Shown in pieces: positions 9,050-56,457 of a stretch of DNA of 56,457 nt. The notes beneath the pieces were generated by a model, which saw only the letters and a program-made list of their open reading frames with translations, had not been told where the DNA came from and did not search any database. Location: NCBI GenBank assembly GCA_029263455.1, contig JAJCXM010000033.1, forward strand, positions 1-56,457, given 5' to 3'. The position numbers and the translations under genes were made by a program. Each line of letters starts with the position of its first letter. Within the stretch, counting starts at the first letter, position 1. Origin of the DNA: Holophagae bacterium (GTDB lineage: Bacteria; Acidobacteriota; Holophagae; Acanthopleuribacterales; Acanthopleuribacteraceae).

Positions 9050-11206
9050 ATGTTTCGTAATTCCCTTCTAATATTGTGCCTGCCTGTGTTGGCACAGGTG
9101 GAATTGATTGCCCCAGATTCGGTTCCTGCGGGGTCCGCATTTGACGTTAGCTGGCGTAACGGGCAGTCTGAAAGAGATTTTTTGACGATCGTTGCGAAAG
9201 GCACACCTGAGGGCAAATACAAGAAGTATGGCTACGCAAAAGGCAAGACTTGGCAAGCTCTGGCCCCAGAAACACCAGGTGATTACGAGATACGTTATTT
9301 AGCCGAGAAAAGCCCCTATCCCACGCTTGCATCGAAGCCATTACTCATTACGCCAATCACGGCTGAATTAAATGTTCCGACTCAAATAGCGGCAGGTTCA
9401 GGGCTCATCGTTAGATGGACCGGTCCCGATAATCCAAGAGATTTCATTACCATCGTTCCAGAAGGTTCGCCTGAGCGTAAATACAAGAAGTACAAATACA
9501 CATCTGCGGGTAATCCGCTTGAATTACCAGTACCAGATCAGCCAGGAATCTATGAAATCAGATATTTGCTCGGTCAGTCTTATGCCACATTGGCTTCGGC
9601 GAAAGTGACCGTGACCTCGGTTTCAGCCAGTCTTAGTCATCCACCAACGGTTAAAGCTGGGGGGAAGTTCTCTGTGAGTTGGGAGGGCCCGGACAATGAT
9701 CGTGATTATGTCACCATCGTCGCTGCCGACCTCGAGGACGGTAAATATGGCAAGTATGCCTACACCAGCAAGGGGAGTCCACTTGAGTTGCCAGCTCCAG
9801 ACCAACCCGGAGCATATTCCATTAGGTACATGACTGGCGGTCAAGGCGTGGTTTTGGCCAAATCGCCAATAAGCGTGACTTCCGTTACCGCTTCGCTCAA
9901 GTTTGATTCGCCTAAAGGGGCCGGGGCGCAACTGGAAGTCCATTGGGATGGGCCCGATAATGAACGAGACTACATAACCATTGTCGAAAAAGGGACGCCC
10001 GAGCGTAAGTACGGAAAATATCGCTATACCGGGCGCGGCAACCCTGCTGTTATACCTGTTCCCGATGTGGCCGGTGAATACGAAGTTCGTTATCAAACGG
10101 GTCACGAAAACAGAACGCTGGCAGCGGAGCCACTGATGGTCGAACCTGAGTCGGCTACCTTGGAAGGCCCAGCAACGGTGAAGACGAGCGAGAGGTTTAA
10201 CATCAATTGGACGGGTCCAGACAACAAAGGTGATTTTGTTGCCATTGCACTGGTGGATTCCAAGCCTAATTCCTGGCCTTCATACAGTTATACCTATCGC
10301 GGTAACCCACTTGAGATGGTTGCTCCGCGTGAAGCTGGCAACTATGAGTTGCGCTACCAGACCGGGCAGAAAAACATAGTCCTGGCTTCTAGACGGCTGC
10401 GAGTGGACAAGGCAGATGTAGAACCAGGTCTGTTACGAGTCGTCTTTTCTGATTCCGCCGATAATTTGTTGGTGGGTAATGGGATTGAGGTGATTCTTGA
10501 TGCTTCCGGTAGCATGCTGCAGAAAATGGAAGGCAAAAGACGTATCGATATTGCAAAAGACGTATTGATAAAACTCGTTCAATCACAAATCCCAGCCGGC
10601 ACGCCGTTTGCGCTGCGCGTATTCGGTCATAAAGAAGCCGACTCCTGTCGTACCGATTTAGAATTCCCATTAAGCCCGTTGGAGCCGGCAAAAATACAGG
10701 CAAAGATTAAGGCTATCCAAGCGATGAACTTAGCCAAAACACCCATTGCCGATTCCTTGGCTTTGGTTGCTGCTGACTTGTCGTCCGTTAAGGGCCAGCG
10801 AATTATTATTCTGATAACGGATGGCGAAGAAACATGTGGTGGTGACCCGGCGGCTGCTATTGAGGAATTGAAGAAGCAGGGCATGGATGTGCGTGTCAAC
10901 ATCGTAGGGTTTGGAATTAACGAAGAGGAATTAAAGCAAAGCTTCCGATTTTGGGCCGAACTGGGTAATGGCTCCTATTTTGATGCCAAAGATGGCTCGC
11001 AACTTGGTGAATCCGTTGCAGAAGCGATTCGGGTTCCCTATCGCGTGATAAGTACTGGCGGTGAAGTTGTTGGACAAGGATTGGTCAACGGAGCTGCGAT
11101 TGAATTACCGGTCGGAGAATATCAAATCGAAACCATCGAGAGCCCGCCACGACGTGCTGTGGCTCAAATTGAAAGTGAGAGCGAAGAGCGGGTCGCTATC
11201 AAATAG
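9050..11206 (+). CDS. Exported protein with five repeats and a C-terminal VWA domain
   Basis: 718 residues with a short signal peptide (MFRNSLLILCLPVLAQ). Five tandem ~85-residue modules fill residues ~17-460. Each holds a beta-sandwich-like pattern 'G-x-x-x-V-x-W-x-G-P-D-N-x-x-D-[FY]-[VI]-T-I-V' then 'K-Y-x-K-Y-x-Y' then 'P-G-x-Y-E-[IV]-R-Y'. Residues ~475-690 are a von Willebrand A domain with an intact MIDAS: DASGS, Thr in KTPI, and Asp in ITDGEE. Such proteins bind divalent metal and a protein or matrix ligand at the cell envelope. It lies convergent to the UbiA-like gene and seems monocistronic. Confidence 0.8.
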   Translation: MFRNSLLILCLPVLAQVELIAPDSVPAGSAFDVSWRNGQSERDFLTIVAKGTPEGKYKKYGYAKGKTWQALAPETPGDYEIRYLAEKSPYPTLASKPLLITPITAELNVPTQIAAGSGLIVRWTGPDNPRDFITIVPEGSPERKYKKYKYTSAGNPLELPVPDQPGIYEIRYLLGQSYATLASAKVTVTSVSASLSHPPTVKAGGKFSVSWEGPDNDRDYVTIVAADLEDGKYGKYAYTSKGSPLELPAPDQPGAYSIRYMTGGQGVVLAKSPISVTSVTASLKFDSPKGAGAQLEVHWDGPDNERDYITIVEKGTPERKYGKYRYTGRGNPAVIPVPDVAGEYEVRYQTGHENRTLAAEPLMVEPESATLEGPATVKTSERFNINWTGPDNKGDFVAIALVDSKPNSWPSYSYTYRGNPLEMVAPREAGNYELRYQTGQKNIVLASRRLRVDKADVEPGLLRVVFSDSADNLLVGNGIEVILDASGSMLQKMEGKRRIDIAKDVLIKLVQSQIPAGTPFALRVFGHKEADSCRTDLEFPLSPLEPAKIQAKIKAIQAMNLAKTPIADSLALVAADLSSVKGQRIIILITDGEETCGGDPAAAIEELKKQGMDVRVNIVGFGINEEELKQSFRFWAELGNGSYFDAKDGSQLGESVAEAIRVPYRVISTGGEVVGQGLVNGAAIELPVGEYQIETIESPPRRAVAQIESESEERVAIK

Positions 11207-45301: not shown

Positions 45302-46447
45302 TCAGTTCAGTGTTCGTTTGAGGATGGCGATGCCTTCATTGAGTTCCGACCAAGAGGTATTCAGTGGCGGTAAGAAACGCAGCGTTTGTGGCCCAGCGGA
45401 CAAAGCCAATAAGCCGTCTTTTTGGATATACGCCAGCATCAGTCGCGCCGAGCAGGTAATGTCTGCCGCCAACATCAGTCCTATCTGACGCACTTCAGTT
45501 ACTTGCGAGCAAGAGCGCAATGAATCGGCAAGATGAGCGCCTTTCTCTTCGATTTGCAATTCCGCGTAATCGTTGAGCAGGACATCCAGAAAAGCGTTGG
45601 CTGCCGCACAACTCAACGGGTTACCCCCAAAAGTTGATCCGTGCATGCCTTTTACAGGTTGGATGGCGCGATCGAACACCGTCGCGCCAATCGGTAAACC
45701 ACCACCCAGTGATTTGGCCATGCAGACGATATCTGGCAATATTTGGTGTCTCTGGTAAGCGAAGAGTGGACCGCAACGCGCAAAGCCTGTCTGCACTTCA
45801 TCCACAATGAGCAAAGCACCTGTCTCATGACACAGTCGTCGTGCTTCCTGAACAAACAGGTCGGTAGCCACACGAACACCGCCTTCACCTTGCACAATTT
45901 CCAAAATAAACGCCGCTGTGTTTTCATCTATGGCGGCCCGCAACGCCTCTAAGTTAGAAAAGGCAATATGCTCGCAATCGGGTAACAGGGATCCACAGCC
46001 TTTGCGATGGCGAGGATTGAATCCTGCGCTCAGCGCACCGTAGGTGCGGCCATGAAAACCACGAATACAGCCAACGATTTTGCTGCGACCCGTATGAATG
46101 CGGGCGAACTTCAAGGCGGCCTCTACACTCTCAGTACCTGAATTAGAGAGGAAAACGCGACTTCCGACCATGCCTGTCAAAGCCGAGAGTCGTGTCATCA
46201 ATCGCTGCCGTTGCTTGTGCGAAAATGCAGCCGAACAATGGACTATTTCAGACAACTGACGGTTGACTGCTTGGCTGATCTCAGGCCGCGAATGGCCCAT
46301 GTTCATCACACCGTGTCCGGCCATGAAGTCCAGGTAACGGCGTCCCGCATCATCCCAGACATAACTGCCAGAAACCTTTTCGAAGGTCAACTCGCGGTCG
46401 CCGGCCACGTCAAAGACGCATTCATTGAGCATAGGCATGATGGGCAT
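45302..46447 (-). CDS. lysJ: Class III PLP aminotransferase LysJ/ArgD
   Basis: 381 residues from the ATG at 46447 (AGGAGG just upstream). It is a fold-type I aminotransferase with NSGTESVEAALKFAR, HGRTYGALS, IVDEVQTGFARCG and the PLP lysine in MAKSLGGGLPIG (about residue 245). It acts on the carrier-bound semialdehyde: LysW-gamma-aminoadipate semialdehyde to LysW-Lys, or the glutamate equivalent to LysW-ornithine. It is the last gene of the LysW operon and overlaps lysZ by 26 bases. Whether lysine or ornithine is made cannot be told from sequence alone. Confidence 0.87.
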   Translation of the reverse strand: MPIMPMLNECVFDVAGDRELTFEKVSGSYVWDDAGRRYLDFMAGHGVMNMGHSRPEISQAVNRQLSEIVHCSAAFSHKQRQRLMTRLSALTGMVGSRVFLSNSGTESVEAALKFARIHTGRSKIVGCIRGFHGRTYGALSAGFNPRHRKGCGSLLPDCEHIAFSNLEALRAAIDENTAAFILEIVQGEGGVRVATDLFVQEARRLCHETGALLIVDEVQTGFARCGPLFAYQRHQILPDIVCMAKSLGGGLPIGATVFDRAIQPVKGMHGSTFGGNPLSCAAANAFLDVLLNDYAELQIEEKGAHLADSLRSCSQVTEVRQIGLMLAADITCSARLMLAYIQKDGLLALSAGPQTLRFLPPLNTSWSELNEGIAILKRTLN

Positions 46448-47237
46448 GGGGTTCCTCCTGCGTAAATCTTGTACCAATGTTCATTTGGCTAAGTGGCCGT
46501 GGCAATCGGCCGTCGGCAAAAATAACGGGCCCGTTTTGTAACATGCGATTAACGGCATGGAGTTTCCGTTTCATGCCGCCCTTTGCCTTTTCAATTAACC
46601 CTGGCATATCGTTCTGCGTCACCTCGGGAATCAAACTTTCCGGTCGTTGCGGATCATCCAGCAGTCCTGGTGCTTCGATGAGTTGGATCACCGTACATGG
46701 TGAATAAGCGCGCTGAAATAGCAGCACCAACTCGTCATTGTCGGCGTTAACGGCGCATCCCCGCTCATCTGCCACTGGAATCGTGATCACTGGCAGGATA
46801 TTCAGTTCGAACAAACTGCGAAGCAGCGGTAGTCGCACTTCAAATGGCTTTCCAGATAGGTCCTGAACGATCATTTGACGACCATCGACCTCCGTTCGAA
46901 TACCGCGTCGACGGCGTGCTTGGATGAGACCGCCGTCTATGCCACTCAAGTGGCAAGCTGATACGCCTGCTTGAGATAGCGTCTCGACAAAACGGGTCGC
47001 GCGCAATCCGGTATAGGCCATTGCAATGGCGTCAATCATGGTTTTGTCTGTTTGCACGCTGGGCATGCCCGACTTGGAAACTAAAGTGGTCTTCTGCTCA
47101 CCCAGCCGCGTCAATAAACGGTCACGTTCGGCATGAGCACCCAAAACAATCAAGGTCTCTTGCCGATCGGCAGCTAAATCTTGAGCAAGTCCAGCCAGGT
47201 TGATTCCCGCTCCGCCCCCGACTTTGATTATGCGCAT
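46422..47237 (-). CDS. lysZ: LysW-aminoadipate/glutamate kinase LysZ (ArgB-like)
   Basis: 271 residues. Amino-acid kinase fold: KVGGGAGINLAGLAQDLA at the N-terminus, then VLGAHAERDRL, LSGIDGGLIQARRRR, ILPVITIPVADERGCAVNADND, and KAKGGMKRKLHAVNRML with FADGR. The 'M-K-R-K' and 'F-A-D-G-R' segments match LysZ more than acetylglutamate kinase. It phosphorylates the carrier-bound side-chain carboxylate. GGAGGT precedes the ATG. It overlaps the upstream amidotransferase-like gene by 10 bases and lysJ by 26. Confidence 0.87.
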   Translation of the reverse strand: MRIIKVGGGAGINLAGLAQDLAADRQETLIVLGAHAERDRLLTRLGEQKTTLVSKSGMPSVQTDKTMIDAIAMAYTGLRATRFVETLSQAGVSACHLSGIDGGLIQARRRRGIRTEVDGRQMIVQDLSGKPFEVRLPLLRSLFELNILPVITIPVADERGCAVNADNDELVLLFQRAYSPCTVIQLIEAPGLLDDPQRPESLIPEVTQNDMPGLIEKAKGGMKRKLHAVNRMLQNGPVIFADGRLPRPLSQMNIGTRFTQEEPHAHHAYAQ

Positions 47238-47917
47238 GATGTGACCTCCGTCTTTAAAGGGATAAGGTGAGAAATACCCTGCTTGTCGATGCGTAATAGC
47301 TGATCGTTGCTCATTATTTTGTTGAGACTGGCGTCAAAAGGTTCCGAAGCTACACCGAACCGGCTCTTCGTGCTCCCGTAATGCAAGGTGAAGTATTCGT
47401 GGTCTTGACGGTATTGATTGCATATCAGCGTTTCGTCGGCGCGCGCCCAGACAAAATTATTGGCGCGTAAGACCCGGCTACGTTGTTCGATTAAGTTGGC
47501 GACACGTCTAACCCTTTGAATACCAGACTCCGGATGATCGCTCCGCAACAGGTGGAATATGCGTGCAGCGCCACTTCGGCCAGGAACGCGCAACCTAACA
47601 CCACGTAACTCACCATTAAAGGCAAATGCCTGTTGGCTAGAAGCGAATGGCATGTTGTTGGGCAGAATGATGTCGTGTTGTTCAAAGGCGCTTCGTGCAT
47701 GTATCAAGAAACGGGTGGAACGCGGGATGTTGGTTCTTTTGGATTCCCAGATAGGGACTATTTCGCGATGTAAGTGCCAGCCATAAGGCGTCCACCAGGA
47801 GATACCCCAGCCGTCACCTTGAAATTCGTGGCTTGACCGGCAACGTTGCGCGAAGGCTTCCAATAGTTCGTCAATCGCGAAGGGGTTTTCGTCTTGCACG
47901 TACGCAAATCTGCACAT
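47228..47917 (-). CDS. Class II glutamine amidotransferase-like Ntn hydrolase within the LysW operon
   Basis: 229 residues beginning MCRF, so removal of Met exposes the nucleophile Cys2. Other class II motifs are kept: DGWGISWW (35-42), HAR with Arg75, and FNGEL with oxyanion Asn101-Gly102. It is single-domain, like YafJ, EgtC and Dug3, with no synthetase domain. EgtC and Dug3 hydrolyse gamma-glutamyl amides. It sits between lysY (2-base gap) and lysZ (10-base overlap), so is clearly part of the LysW operon. I infer a gamma-glutamyl amidase acting on the LysW C-terminus (Gln deamidation and/or product release). Alternatively it is an unrelated glutaminase. Confidence 0.78.
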   Translation of the reverse strand: MCRFAYVQDENPFAIDELLEAFAQRCRSSHEFQGDGWGISWWTPYGWHLHREIVPIWESKRTNIPRSTRFLIHARSAFEQHDIILPNNMPFASSQQAFAFNGELRGVRLRVPGRSGAARIFHLLRSDHPESGIQRVRRVANLIEQRSRVLRANNFVWARADETLICNQYRQDHEYFTLHYGSTKSRFGVASEPFDASLNKIMSNDQLLRIDKQGISHLIPLKTEVTSCA

Positions 47918-47919
47918 GG

Positions 47920-48960
47920 CTACACCGGGCTCAAGCCAGGAAATGTGAGTGCCAACTGCTCGTCAAATCCCATCATGATATTGAGACACTGCACGGCTTG
48001 ACCGGCAGCACCCTTCATTAAGTTGTCAATGGCGCTCATGATCACCAAGCGCCCAGACCGCTCATCCACAGCCAACGCGATGTCACAGAAATTGGACCCA
48101 GCCAGGTATTTAGGTTCGGGCACGCGATGGATTCCTTGTCGCTGAGAGATCAGGCGAATGAAAGGATCGTTCTTGTAGAATTCACGGAACATGGCGAGAA
48201 TTTCTCGCCAGTTTAGTCTGTCTTTCAAAGTGACATGGCTGGTGGCCAGCACGCCACGCACTTGGTCAACGGCAGTGGCTGACATGTCCAATTGCATGGG
48301 TCCGAAGCTCCCCAGTGCCATTTCTACTTCGGCCGTGTGTCGGTGACCCGTTGGTTGAAAACTACGTAAACAGCCCGATCGAAGAGGGTGGTGCGAGCCT
48401 TCATTGGCAGAAGCACCAGCCTGTGAACTACTCACTTTCACTTCGCAAATGACGGGTTGATCAATCAAGCCAGCGTGAGCGATGGGTAGAAGTCCCAATA
48501 TGATGGCCGTCGCATTGCAGCCCGCGCCCGTGACGCGCCGTGCTTCAGGTAATAGGCCGCGGTTTAGTTCGGGGACGCCATAAACGAACGACGACAGGAG
48601 GTCTGGCCGCGCGTGTTCCGTCGTGTACCACTGGCAATAACGCTCGCTCGTGTCCAAACGAAAATCAGACGACAAATCAATGATCGTTGGGGCGAGTTTG
48701 CTCAGTTCGTCGATTCGCAGCATCGCTTGCCCGTGTGGCAGGCACAAGAACAGCACATCAACGGCTTCTAACGTTGCCAGCGACGTAAATGCCAAAGATT
48801 TGATATGTCTCAGGTTAGGGTGGACGACCGATACCGGCTTGCCCGCCCACCGTTCTGACGTGACCTGCGTCAGCTCAACTTCAGGGTGCTGTAGCAACAA
48901 GCGGATGAGTTCTCCGCCCGTGTAACCAGAACCGCCGACAATTGCGACTTGTAAACTCAT
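47920..48960 (-). CDS. lysY: LysW-gamma-phosphate semialdehyde reductase LysY (ArgC-like)
   Basis: 346 residues. Rossmann motif GGSGYTGGELIRLL at residues 9-22, catalytic Cys148 in GAGCNAT, and His in PTGHRHTAEVE. The whole length reads closely like Thermus LysY (VHPNLR, DLSSDFRL, SSSQAGASANEGSHHP, AIDNLMKGAAGQAVQCLN, ending FPGLSPV). It reduces the carrier-bound acyl phosphate to the semialdehyde with NADPH. It overlaps lysX by 4 bases. Confidence 0.92.
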   Translation of the reverse strand: MSLQVAIVGGSGYTGGELIRLLLQHPEVELTQVTSERWAGKPVSVVHPNLRHIKSLAFTSLATLEAVDVLFLCLPHGQAMLRIDELSKLAPTIIDLSSDFRLDTSERYCQWYTTEHARPDLLSSFVYGVPELNRGLLPEARRVTGAGCNATAIILGLLPIAHAGLIDQPVICEVKVSSSQAGASANEGSHHPLRSGCLRSFQPTGHRHTAEVEMALGSFGPMQLDMSATAVDQVRGVLATSHVTLKDRLNWREILAMFREFYKNDPFIRLISQRQGIHRVPEPKYLAGSNFCDIALAVDERSGRLVIMSAIDNLMKGAAGQAVQCLNIMMGFDEQLALTFPGLSPV

Positions 48961-49808
48961 GTCGCAGTCCCGACCGACTGTGGCTGTGCGACAAATAACG
49001 CCGTTTCCAAGGCCAGATCAATGCCTGTCGGGCCGATACTATTGCGAAACTCCATGCGGTCATTAATCTCGTTGACCAGGTATCCGTTGGGCGATTCCAG
49101 CAGGTCGATGGCCAATAGACCGCCGCCAACTGCCTGTGCTGCGCGCAAAGCCAACTCCTCAAGCTCTGCGTTCATCGGTAGACCCGATACCGTAGCGCCT
49201 CTTGCTGTGTTGGTGATCCAGTGCTCGGAGTGACGGTAAATGGCGGCAAACGCTCGATTCCCCGCGACAAATACACGGATGTCGCGACCCATTTTTGAGA
49301 CATACGCCTGCACAAAAAAGACGTGATGTTGCGGTCCTCCCAAAATAGATTTGTGTTCGATGATGGCTTCAGCCGCATGGCGGTCATGTACTTTGGCGAG
49401 TAAGCGGCCCCACGAACCGATCGGCGGCTTGAGCACACATGGATAACCGATCTCTTCAATCGCCATGAGCGCTTCGTTGGCTGAGAAGGCAACTCGGAAT
49501 TCAGGCTGAGGGATGCCGTGTCTTGCCAAAACGGAAGCAGTCCTAATCTTGTCGCCGCAGACATCAACCACAGCTGAACTGTTCAGACAGTTAACGCCAC
49601 GGGCTTCAAGTATCTGCGTGATGGCTGCAGCATGGGTCTGGCTGACACTGCGAACGAATGCGATATCCGTCGTTTCGGGTGTTATGTCTGCCAGTTCGGA
49701 TTCGTGCGTCAAGTTCAGCGAAACATGATCAAGCGAATTGAAGGCGTCGATAAGCAGACGTTCTTCCTGTCGTAAGATGCCATGGACCAAGGCGACGCGG
49801 GTCATCAT
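48957..49808 (-). CDS. lysX: LysW-amino acid ligase LysX (RimK-like ATP-grasp)
   Basis: 283 residues. The ATG at 49808 overlaps the lysW stop (ATGA), so it is chosen over an in-frame TTG within lysW. ATP-grasp motifs: CVLKPPIGSWGRLLAKV, QAYVSKMGRDIRVFV, AIYRHSEHWITNTARG, and metal-binding NEINDRMEFRNS. It closely follows Thermus LysX, which ligates the alpha-amino group of aminoadipate to the gamma-carboxyl of the LysW terminal Glu. The substrate-selecting end (RNSIGPTGID) differs from the Thermus version, so specificity for glutamate or aminoadipate is open. As encoded, its partner LysW ends in Gln. Confidence 0.92.
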   Translation of the reverse strand: MMTRVALVHGILRQEERLLIDAFNSLDHVSLNLTHESELADITPETTDIAFVRSVSQTHAAAITQILEARGVNCLNSSAVVDVCGDKIRTASVLARHGIPQPEFRVAFSANEALMAIEEIGYPCVLKPPIGSWGRLLAKVHDRHAAEAIIEHKSILGGPQHHVFFVQAYVSKMGRDIRVFVAGNRAFAAIYRHSEHWITNTARGATVSGLPMNAELEELALRAAQAVGGGLLAIDLLESPNGYLVNEINDRMEFRNSIGPTGIDLALETALFVAQPQSVGTAT

Positions 49809-49966
49809 TGACCCCAATCTTCTTCATCAGCAGGAATCTCTTGTAACGCCAAGGGTGTGATCGTCAATACTTCAAACTCACTCAAACACTCACCACACGA
49901 AACAACTTGGTGCACCACTAAATCGGTATTTTGGTCCATCACAGAACCGCAAATCGTGCATGACAT
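49805..49966 (-). CDS. lysW: Amino-group carrier protein LysW with unusual C-terminal Gln
   Basis: 53 residues from the ATG at 49966 (GGAGGT five bases upstream), close to the 54 of Thermus LysW. Four zinc cysteines lie in CTIC (3-6) and CGEC (24-27). The acidic C-terminus ADEEDWG is the family signature, but the final codon is CAA (Gln53) immediately before TGA, not Glu. LysW-family carriers use the gamma-carboxyl of a terminal Glu to hold the intermediate. The codon was checked base by base on the complementary strand (49808-49810). The stop overlaps the lysX start. Confidence 0.9.
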   Translation of the reverse strand: MSCTICGSVMDQNTDLVVHQVVSCGECLSEFEVLTITPLALQEIPADEEDWGQ

Positions 49967-50171: not shown

Positions 50172-50825
50172 ATGAAGAGGATAGGAGATGCCGTCGAAGA
50201 GATTGTCCACGCCAACGCTGCACTGCGTTTTGGCTTTCACCATGGACTACTCAATCTCACCCAGACGGCCAAGTTCATTAAGCCGTTGGTTGAAGCACGG
50301 ACGATGAAAGACATCAAAATCAGCGCCCTGGTGATGGCGTTATCGCGCTATGGGAAGAACCACACGCCGCCCACTCTTAACGTTCAATTTCAAATTGACC
50401 ATGTACGCGTACACCACGGCTTGGTATCCGTCACCTGGCCGAAGTCTGAGGAAGTTCACCGCGCCGTTGCTAAACTCTTCACGCAAGTTGAGCAGAAAGA
50501 TTTGTTTTTGACCGTGTCGGAAGGCGTCAGCGAGATTACCGTCATCACTGAACGTGACCTGTTTGAATCGATCGAAGCCAAGCTTAGAGAGAAGATCGAA
50601 ATACGAACAACACGTGTCACCGGCATCGGGGTTAAGTTTGGCAAACGGTACTTGAATCAGCCCGGACTGTTGAGTCATATCCTGCAGCAGATTTCGTTTC
50701 AGGGGATTAATGTCGTTGAAGTGGCATCAACGGCTACTGAATTCGTGGTTTACGTCCATGACCTTGACGCCCAGCTCGCGTTCGAGTCGATTTATCAGAG
50801 ATTCTGTGTGCAGCCCAATGAATAG
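50172..50825 (+). CDS. ACT-domain regulatory protein
   Basis: 217 residues. The first ~75 residues are helical (ALRFGFHHGLLNLTQTAKFIKPLVEARTMKDIKISALVMALSRY), similar to an N-terminal module seen in small ACT-type proteins of archaea and some bacteria. The second half has one or two ACT-like segments, the clearest being KRYLNQPGLLSHILQQISFQGINVVEVASTATEFVVYV. ACT domains bind amino acids and regulate metabolic enzymes or transcription. Its divergent placement beside lysW suggests it senses the pathway product, by inference only. Confidence 0.75.
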   Translation: MKRIGDAVEEIVHANAALRFGFHHGLLNLTQTAKFIKPLVEARTMKDIKISALVMALSRYGKNHTPPTLNVQFQIDHVRVHHGLVSVTWPKSEEVHRAVAKLFTQVEQKDLFLTVSEGVSEITVITERDLFESIEAKLREKIEIRTTRVTGIGVKFGKRYLNQPGLLSHILQQISFQGINVVEVASTATEFVVYVHDLDAQLAFESIYQRFCVQPNE

Positions 50826-56321: not shown

Positions 56322-56457
56322 ATAGGGGTAGGGAGGAGCCATTTCTGAATCCCCCCTCCCTCCGAACCGTACGTGCGGTTCTCCCGCATACGGCTCTCCG
56401 GTTGGTGGTCTTACCTCACAGAGGACTTGAAATTCAGCCGATGCGCACGTGTGGCTG
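56322..56457 (-). mobile_element. Group II intron, 3' end (domains V-VI), truncated by the window edge
   Basis: On the minus strand, 56364-56396 reads as a canonical domain V hairpin: GAGCCGTATGCGG, a GAGA-type tetraloop region, CCGCACGTACGGTTC. Downstream (56363-56322) the G-rich/C-rich arms form domain VI, with a bulged A at 56329. Seven bases later the sequence reaches ...TAT at 56322, matching the family's 3' end in AY with the branch A 7-8 nt upstream. The reverse-transcriptase gene would lie beyond the right edge, so mobility cannot be judged. Confidence 0.8.

Follow-up and report, generated by a model that had tools for sequence, protein, structure and literature searches.

A Class II Amidotransferase-Fold Hydrolase That Probably Replaces LysK in LysW Operons

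A gene for a small class II glutamine-amidotransferase-fold Ntn hydrolase, which we call gat, is embedded in LysW operons of diverse bacteria and was never found together with lysK, the gene for the hydrolase of the known pathway. From this exclusion, the conserved synteny and the active site, we conclude that gat has probably taken the place of LysK as the [LysW]-lysine hydrolase without being homologous to it (we put the probability at roughly 0.78), and thus would carry out the release of lysine from LysW-gamma-lysine.

Genomic Context and Distribution

The window, meaning the whole 56,457-nucleotide stretch of Holophagae DNA analyzed here, contains an operon with the gene order lysW-lysX-lysY-gat-lysZ-lysJ and a divergent neighbor:

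49805..49966, minus strand: lysW, carrier protein of 53 aa with the C-terminus EEDWGQ
48957..49805, minus strand: lysX, ATP-grasp ligase with a GSWGR motif and the aminoadipate-type NT signature (HWITNTARG); the ATG start was chosen over an upstream TTG at 49817
47920..48960, minus strand: lysY (argC-like), [LysW]-aminoadipyl phosphate reductase
47228..47917, minus strand: gat, class II glutamine-amidotransferase-fold Ntn hydrolase of 229 aa, proposed [LysW]-lysine hydrolase / LysW-Gln deamidase
46422..47237, minus strand: lysZ, [LysW]-aminoadipate kinase
45302..46447, minus strand: lysJ, [LysW]-aminoadipate semialdehyde aminotransferase; a start at the internal ATG near position 46447 is more probable than one at the TTG at 46477
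50172..50825, plus strand: divergent gene, possible regulator, with a weak ACT-domain match (aspartokinase-like)

The joint presence of lysW, lysX, lysY, lysZ and lysJ, a zinc-ribbon LysW and the GSWGR motif of LysX place this operon in the LysW pathway. The encoded LysW terminates in EDWGQ instead of the expected EDWGE, and no lysK lies within the operon. A first-pass annotation had described the gat reading frame as beginning with Met-Cys, carrying R75 and N101-G102, and being separated from lysY by a 2-base gap while overlapping lysZ by 10 bases, all of which we find in the sequence. It had further claimed that gat is co-translated with the pathway; the start codon, 2 bases past the lysY stop and preceded by no clear Shine-Dalgarno sequence, is consistent with translational coupling. 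Relatives of the divergent gene occupy the same place in ten other loci (L007, L008, L009, L012, L016, L032, L035, L048, L056 and L088), and this gene is a possible lysine-sensing regulator, judging by its ACT-domain match. The end of the window carries a match to the group II catalytic intron (RF00029, 61.8 bits; 56322-56398, minus strand).

Four other genomes of the window's family carry gat with identical gene order and EDWGQ in all: in a sister genome the copy is 55% identical and occupies the same slot, and in the other three the copies are 35-37% identical. A search with a five-sequence alignment against one genome per GTDB species returned 239 relatives. Because of this conservation in the sister genome, the family and GTDB at large, the reading frame is not a chance occurrence. 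The best 80 of the 239 relatives all reside in LysW operons, nearly always between lysY and lysZ, and their loci span about ten phyla; among these 80, LysW ends in EDWGE more often than in EDWGQ. The phyla represented include Acidobacteriota, Ignavibacteriota, Calditrichota, KSB1, Gammaproteobacteria, Gemmatimonadota, Spirochaetota, Planctomycetota, Zixibacteria and others, and no gat gene was found on plasmids. With a gat profile, 80 genomes that either contain lysK or are without LysW gave 0 matches; this run included no separate positive control, although the search tool was the one that detects gat in the family genomes. Two loci (L121:4303-5121 and L129:4068-4901) carry a more divergent gat after lysJ, the slot occupied elsewhere by lysK, in operons that also contain a homocitrate-synthase-like gene; this placement possibly represents an intermediate or a second recruitment. 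In the open literature searched, we found no description of a gat-type enzyme in a LysW pathway and no mention of EDWGQ.

Lysine as the More Likely Product

The GSWGR motif of LysX recognizes the EDWG motif of LysW, and an Asn-Thr signature is specific to LysX enzymes that act on aminoadipate (PMC10433800). The window LysX has both, and the Asn-Thr signature is also present in most loci. DapB is missing at its curated cut-off both in the window's genome and in every other gat genome of Acidobacteriota and Ignavibacteria that was tested, so lysine is probably supplied by the LysW operon, and many gat loci include a homocitrate-synthase-like gene. A riboswitch could have given a clue to the product, and none was detected at gathering thresholds upstream of the LysW operon in the window and four loci. 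The first-pass annotation had left the product as lysine or ornithine; of the two, lysine is the more likely in the window's genome, given the LysX signature and the missing DapB, and ornithine the less likely.

The main argument for ornithine, alone or together with lysine, as the released product is that the window's genome and its sister have no canonical ArgB, yet possess an ornithine carbamoyltransferase, so that ornithine may be a further product of the LysW enzymes, as in Thermococcus (PMC10433800). Nevertheless, three relatives (G003, G005 and G006) have their own ArgB, and the aminoadipate-type LysX, the homocitrate-synthase-like genes and the need for a LysW route to lysine where DapB is missing all speak for lysine, which leaves this alternative unlikely.

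Some loci depart from this pattern. Three Gammaproteobacteria (G315, G317 and G318, with loci L046, L052 and L061) combine a gat-type LysW operon with canonical ArgB and DapB, and there the operon looks redundant for both lysine and arginine. One gat operon contains two lysX genes (L070:7216-8070 and 9063-10022), one with an NT and one with an NA signature, which suggests a second LysX substrate, and two lysX genes are possible in L082.

Mutual Exclusion of gat and lysK

For sampling independent of gat, individual clades were searched for the exact EDWG[E/Q]-stop motif, and the surrounding DNA was read. This covered 297 Acidobacteriota genomes, 121 Gemmatimonadota, 149 in the class of an Ignavibacteria genome, 41 of one gammaproteobacterial order, and 149 in the phylum of a Planctomycetota genome. 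Where gat is lacking, an M20 peptidase gene is located immediately after lysJ, and its best PDB matches are 4q7a and 5xoy, the latter (E 2e-69) a [LysW]-lysine hydrolase; by these matches, the M20 neighbor that gat excludes is LysK.

Among operons with a visible LysW, 108 carry gat, 26 carry lysK and none carries both. Some genomes were reached twice in these counts, which cover operons found either through gat itself or through a LysW ending in exactly EDWG[EQ] and so miss other C-termini and other LysW lineages. Nine operons have neither gene, mostly through truncation at contig ends, and the assemblies are mostly MAGs, in which some gene absences may be gaps. The first-pass annotation had proposed to test whether gat goes along with the absence of lysK, and this association holds fully. 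Its suggestion that the enzyme releases the product is likewise well supported, since gat occurs in just those cases where LysK is missing. The gat protein itself lacks the M20 metallopeptidase sequence and has a different fold.

Lysine might instead be released by an unlinked M20 peptidase of the ArgE or DapE kind, with gat having an accessory task such as clearing wrong or stalled LysW adducts. Most gat genomes do encode other M20 proteins, which score 30-117 bits against a LysK profile. However, seven lysK genomes reach 414-608 bits with the same profile, against a maximum of 117 bits in the gat genomes tested (69 in the window's genome); no LysK-grade protein was found in any of these gat genomes, and two of them (G321 and G326) yield no M20 match at threshold. 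Retention of gat in the operon across many phyla, with lysK consistently absent, also argues against an accessory task, and we regard this explanation as improbable.

In a tree of LysX plus LysY, built after removal of identical LysX sequences (gat rows: 58 with Glu, 36 with Gln and 6 with an unknown last residue; lysK rows: 26 with Glu), all lysK rows fall on one side of a single branch. Because the switch is one change on the tree, the exclusion counts as a single evolutionary event in this sample, no matter how many operons show it. The two groups of operons also differ within LysW, in the triplet at residues -12 to -10 (counted back from the C-terminus), whose middle residue is nearly always Glu (xEA) in the gat type and mostly Leu, Pro or His in the lysK type. 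This residue follows phylogeny, and possibly the releasing enzyme recognizes LysW by it.

Glu and Gln at the LysW C-Terminus

The first-pass annotation had expected gat to co-occur with LysW proteins ending in EDWGQ, and one direction of this expectation is borne out. EDWGQ is found in 47 of the 108 gat operons and in none of the 26 lysK operons, all of which encode EDWGE, and the EDWGQ loci in which gat is missing are all cut by contig ends. The other direction fails, with EDWGE in the remaining 61 gat operons, and a symmetric association was therefore rejected. Characterized LysW proteins in the PDB (5k2m and 3wwl) end in EDWGE, and EDWGQ occurs in 0 of 8 plasmid LysW operons; in all of those from Deinococcus, Bacillota and Streptomyces, LysW has Glu as its last residue, and most of these operons adjoin an M20 hydrolase. 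Three clusters on plasmids (L236, L237 from Staphylococcus epidermidis plasmid NZ_CP043848.1, and L238) combine LysW with a RimK-type ligase, aminotransferases, an M20 hydrolase and a split transketolase, apparently for a secondary metabolite.

On the LysX plus LysY tree the last residue of LysW changes at least 14 times, with all Gln rows inside gat lineages; counting the starred branches only, the Gln group still requires 12 changes. The lysK part makes up 26% of the tree length, and the chance that 0 of 14 changes would fall there is about 0.014 if changes follow branch length.

An enzyme that only matures LysW, deamidating the terminal Gln of EDWGQ while some other enzyme releases lysine, would account for the restriction of EDWGQ to gat lineages, and a precedent exists in Dop, which deamidates Pup ending in Gln (PMC8223512). 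This is very improbable, since there is nothing to deamidate in the 61 EDWGE operons, where Cys2, Arg75 and Asn101-Gly102 are nonetheless invariant, and LysK is absent from the same genomes. Because these operons make up 61 of 108, Gln maturation, one of the activities offered by the first-pass annotation, is not the general job of gat. It does fit as a second use, as EDWGQ was never seen with lysK. Lineages with EDWGQ, that of the window included, probably have both activities, and those with EDWGE product release alone.

The gamma-carboxyl group that carries the product is, in Gln, present as its amide with ammonia, which would make Glu and Gln interchangeable wherever gat is present. The most economical reading is a permissive one, in which the target of gat is the gamma-amide at the final residue and Gln serves as well as Glu. 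We moderately favor the view that one Ntn hydrolase both matures LysW-Gln to LysW-Glu and unloads the product, freeing the last codon to drift between Glu and Gln, a dual role like that of Dop in an unrelated fold.

Structure and Active Site

Residues C2, R75, N101 and G102 are invariant in 129 gat sequences. An AlphaFold2 model built from 54 sequences (pLDDT 92, pTM 0.90) has the alpha-beta-beta-alpha architecture which, together with the Cys after Met, the Arg and the Asn-Gly, defines the class II glutamine-amidotransferase (Ntn hydrolase) fold. In comparisons with this model, the closest solved structure is EgtC bound to its natural gamma-glutamyl substrate (Z 25.9, rmsd 2.1 over 209 residues), followed by PurF (Z 22.6) and GlmS (Z 22.5). 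A single gat protein has no sequence match in the PDB, and a gat profile reaches only EgtC and 3mdn. The 54 aligned members match the EgtC NCBIfam model weakly (best E 4e-17) and no other NCBIfam model. The candidate assignment of gat as an EgtC orthologue was rejected on score, as the window protein reaches 32.9 bits with TIGR03442, for which the curated equivalog cut-off is 218.65. A protein much closer to EgtC (213 bits) is encoded elsewhere in the sister genome, G001.

In GlmS, the free alpha-amino group of glutamine is held by Asp123, part of the [ST]D[ST]E motif. MAFFT and hhalign agree in aligning this Asp with G116 of gat (Gly in 99% of the 129 sequences), so that gat lacks the Asp expected of a class II amidotransferase acting on free glutamine, whereas EgtC-like proteins, PurF and GlmS of the same phylum retain it (TD[ST]E). 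A pocket without this residue is what action on LysW predicts, because the alpha-amino group of the LysW C-terminal Glu sits in a peptide bond. Based on the alignment and on what is known of GlmS, the loss would suit an N-acylated gamma-glutamyl substrate.

That gat is an ordinary glutaminase or a hydrolase of gamma-glutamyl metabolites (of the EgtC or Dug3 type) placed in the operon by chance accords with its fold, which is that of EgtC, and with GATase_4 and EgtC as its closest sequence models, but is most improbable of all given its score far below the EgtC cut-off, the conserved LysW synteny, the lost Asp and its absence from all 80 genomes with lysK or without LysW.

Discussion

By the proposed mechanism, LysX would couple 2-aminoadipate to the gamma-carboxyl group of the LysW C-terminal Glu, and LysZ, LysY and LysJ would turn the bound aminoadipate into LysW-gamma-lysine. 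The N-terminal Cys2 of gat could then attack the gamma-glutamyl amide, yielding a LysW-Glu thioester and free lysine, after which water would resolve the thioester and regenerate LysW-Glu. Where the last codon specifies Gln, as in the window, gat would first convert LysW-Gln to LysW-Glu with ammonia as the leaving group. Both reactions are predicted from the exclusion, the synteny and the active site. In the haloarchaeal LysW homologue ArgW, an E54A mutation results in arginine auxotrophy, demonstrating that the C-terminal Glu side chain is essential (PMC10433800). Hence, a LysW ending in Gln must become one ending in Glu, if the usual linkage is used.

LysK (Thermus thermophilus, 5xoy) shares with gat the proposed hydrolysis of LysW-gamma-lysine and membership in LysW operons, but it is a metallopeptidase, unrelated in fold and chemistry to an N-terminal-Cys Ntn hydrolase. 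EgtC, the ergothioneine gamma-glutamyl amidohydrolase (4zfj, 4zfk and 4zfl), and Dug3 likewise use the class II amidotransferase fold in a stand-alone gamma-glutamyl amide hydrolase; EgtC is only about 19% identical to gat, has Asp in place of the near-invariant Gly, and does not share the linkage of gat to LysW genes. Dop, the depupylase and deamidase of Pup, follows the same logic, in that one enzyme deamidates the Gln of a carrier and cleaves its gamma-glutamyl conjugates; Pup ends in Gln or Glu depending on lineage (PMC8223512). This likeness is in logic only, as Dop is related to glutamine synthetase. The aminoadipate pathway of Thermus, Deinococcus and archaea shares lysW, lysX, lysY, lysZ, lysJ and the EDWG motif (for example, Deinococcus L235), whereas the operons described here have gat instead of LysK and allow EDWGQ.

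If gat is indeed the releasing enzyme, this would be a second, independently evolved case of the carrier logic seen with Pup and Dop, and a biosynthetic step would clearly have been taken over by a non-homologous enzyme. It would also give a name to a family now labeled merely as a weak EgtC or GATase_4 match, and pathway predictors, which report a gap wherever LysK is not found, could be corrected. Many gat bacteria lack DapB, and the LysW pathway is thus probably their only source of lysine. For these organisms, in which the pathway is present with no enzyme annotated for lysine release, the finding would close the missing step.
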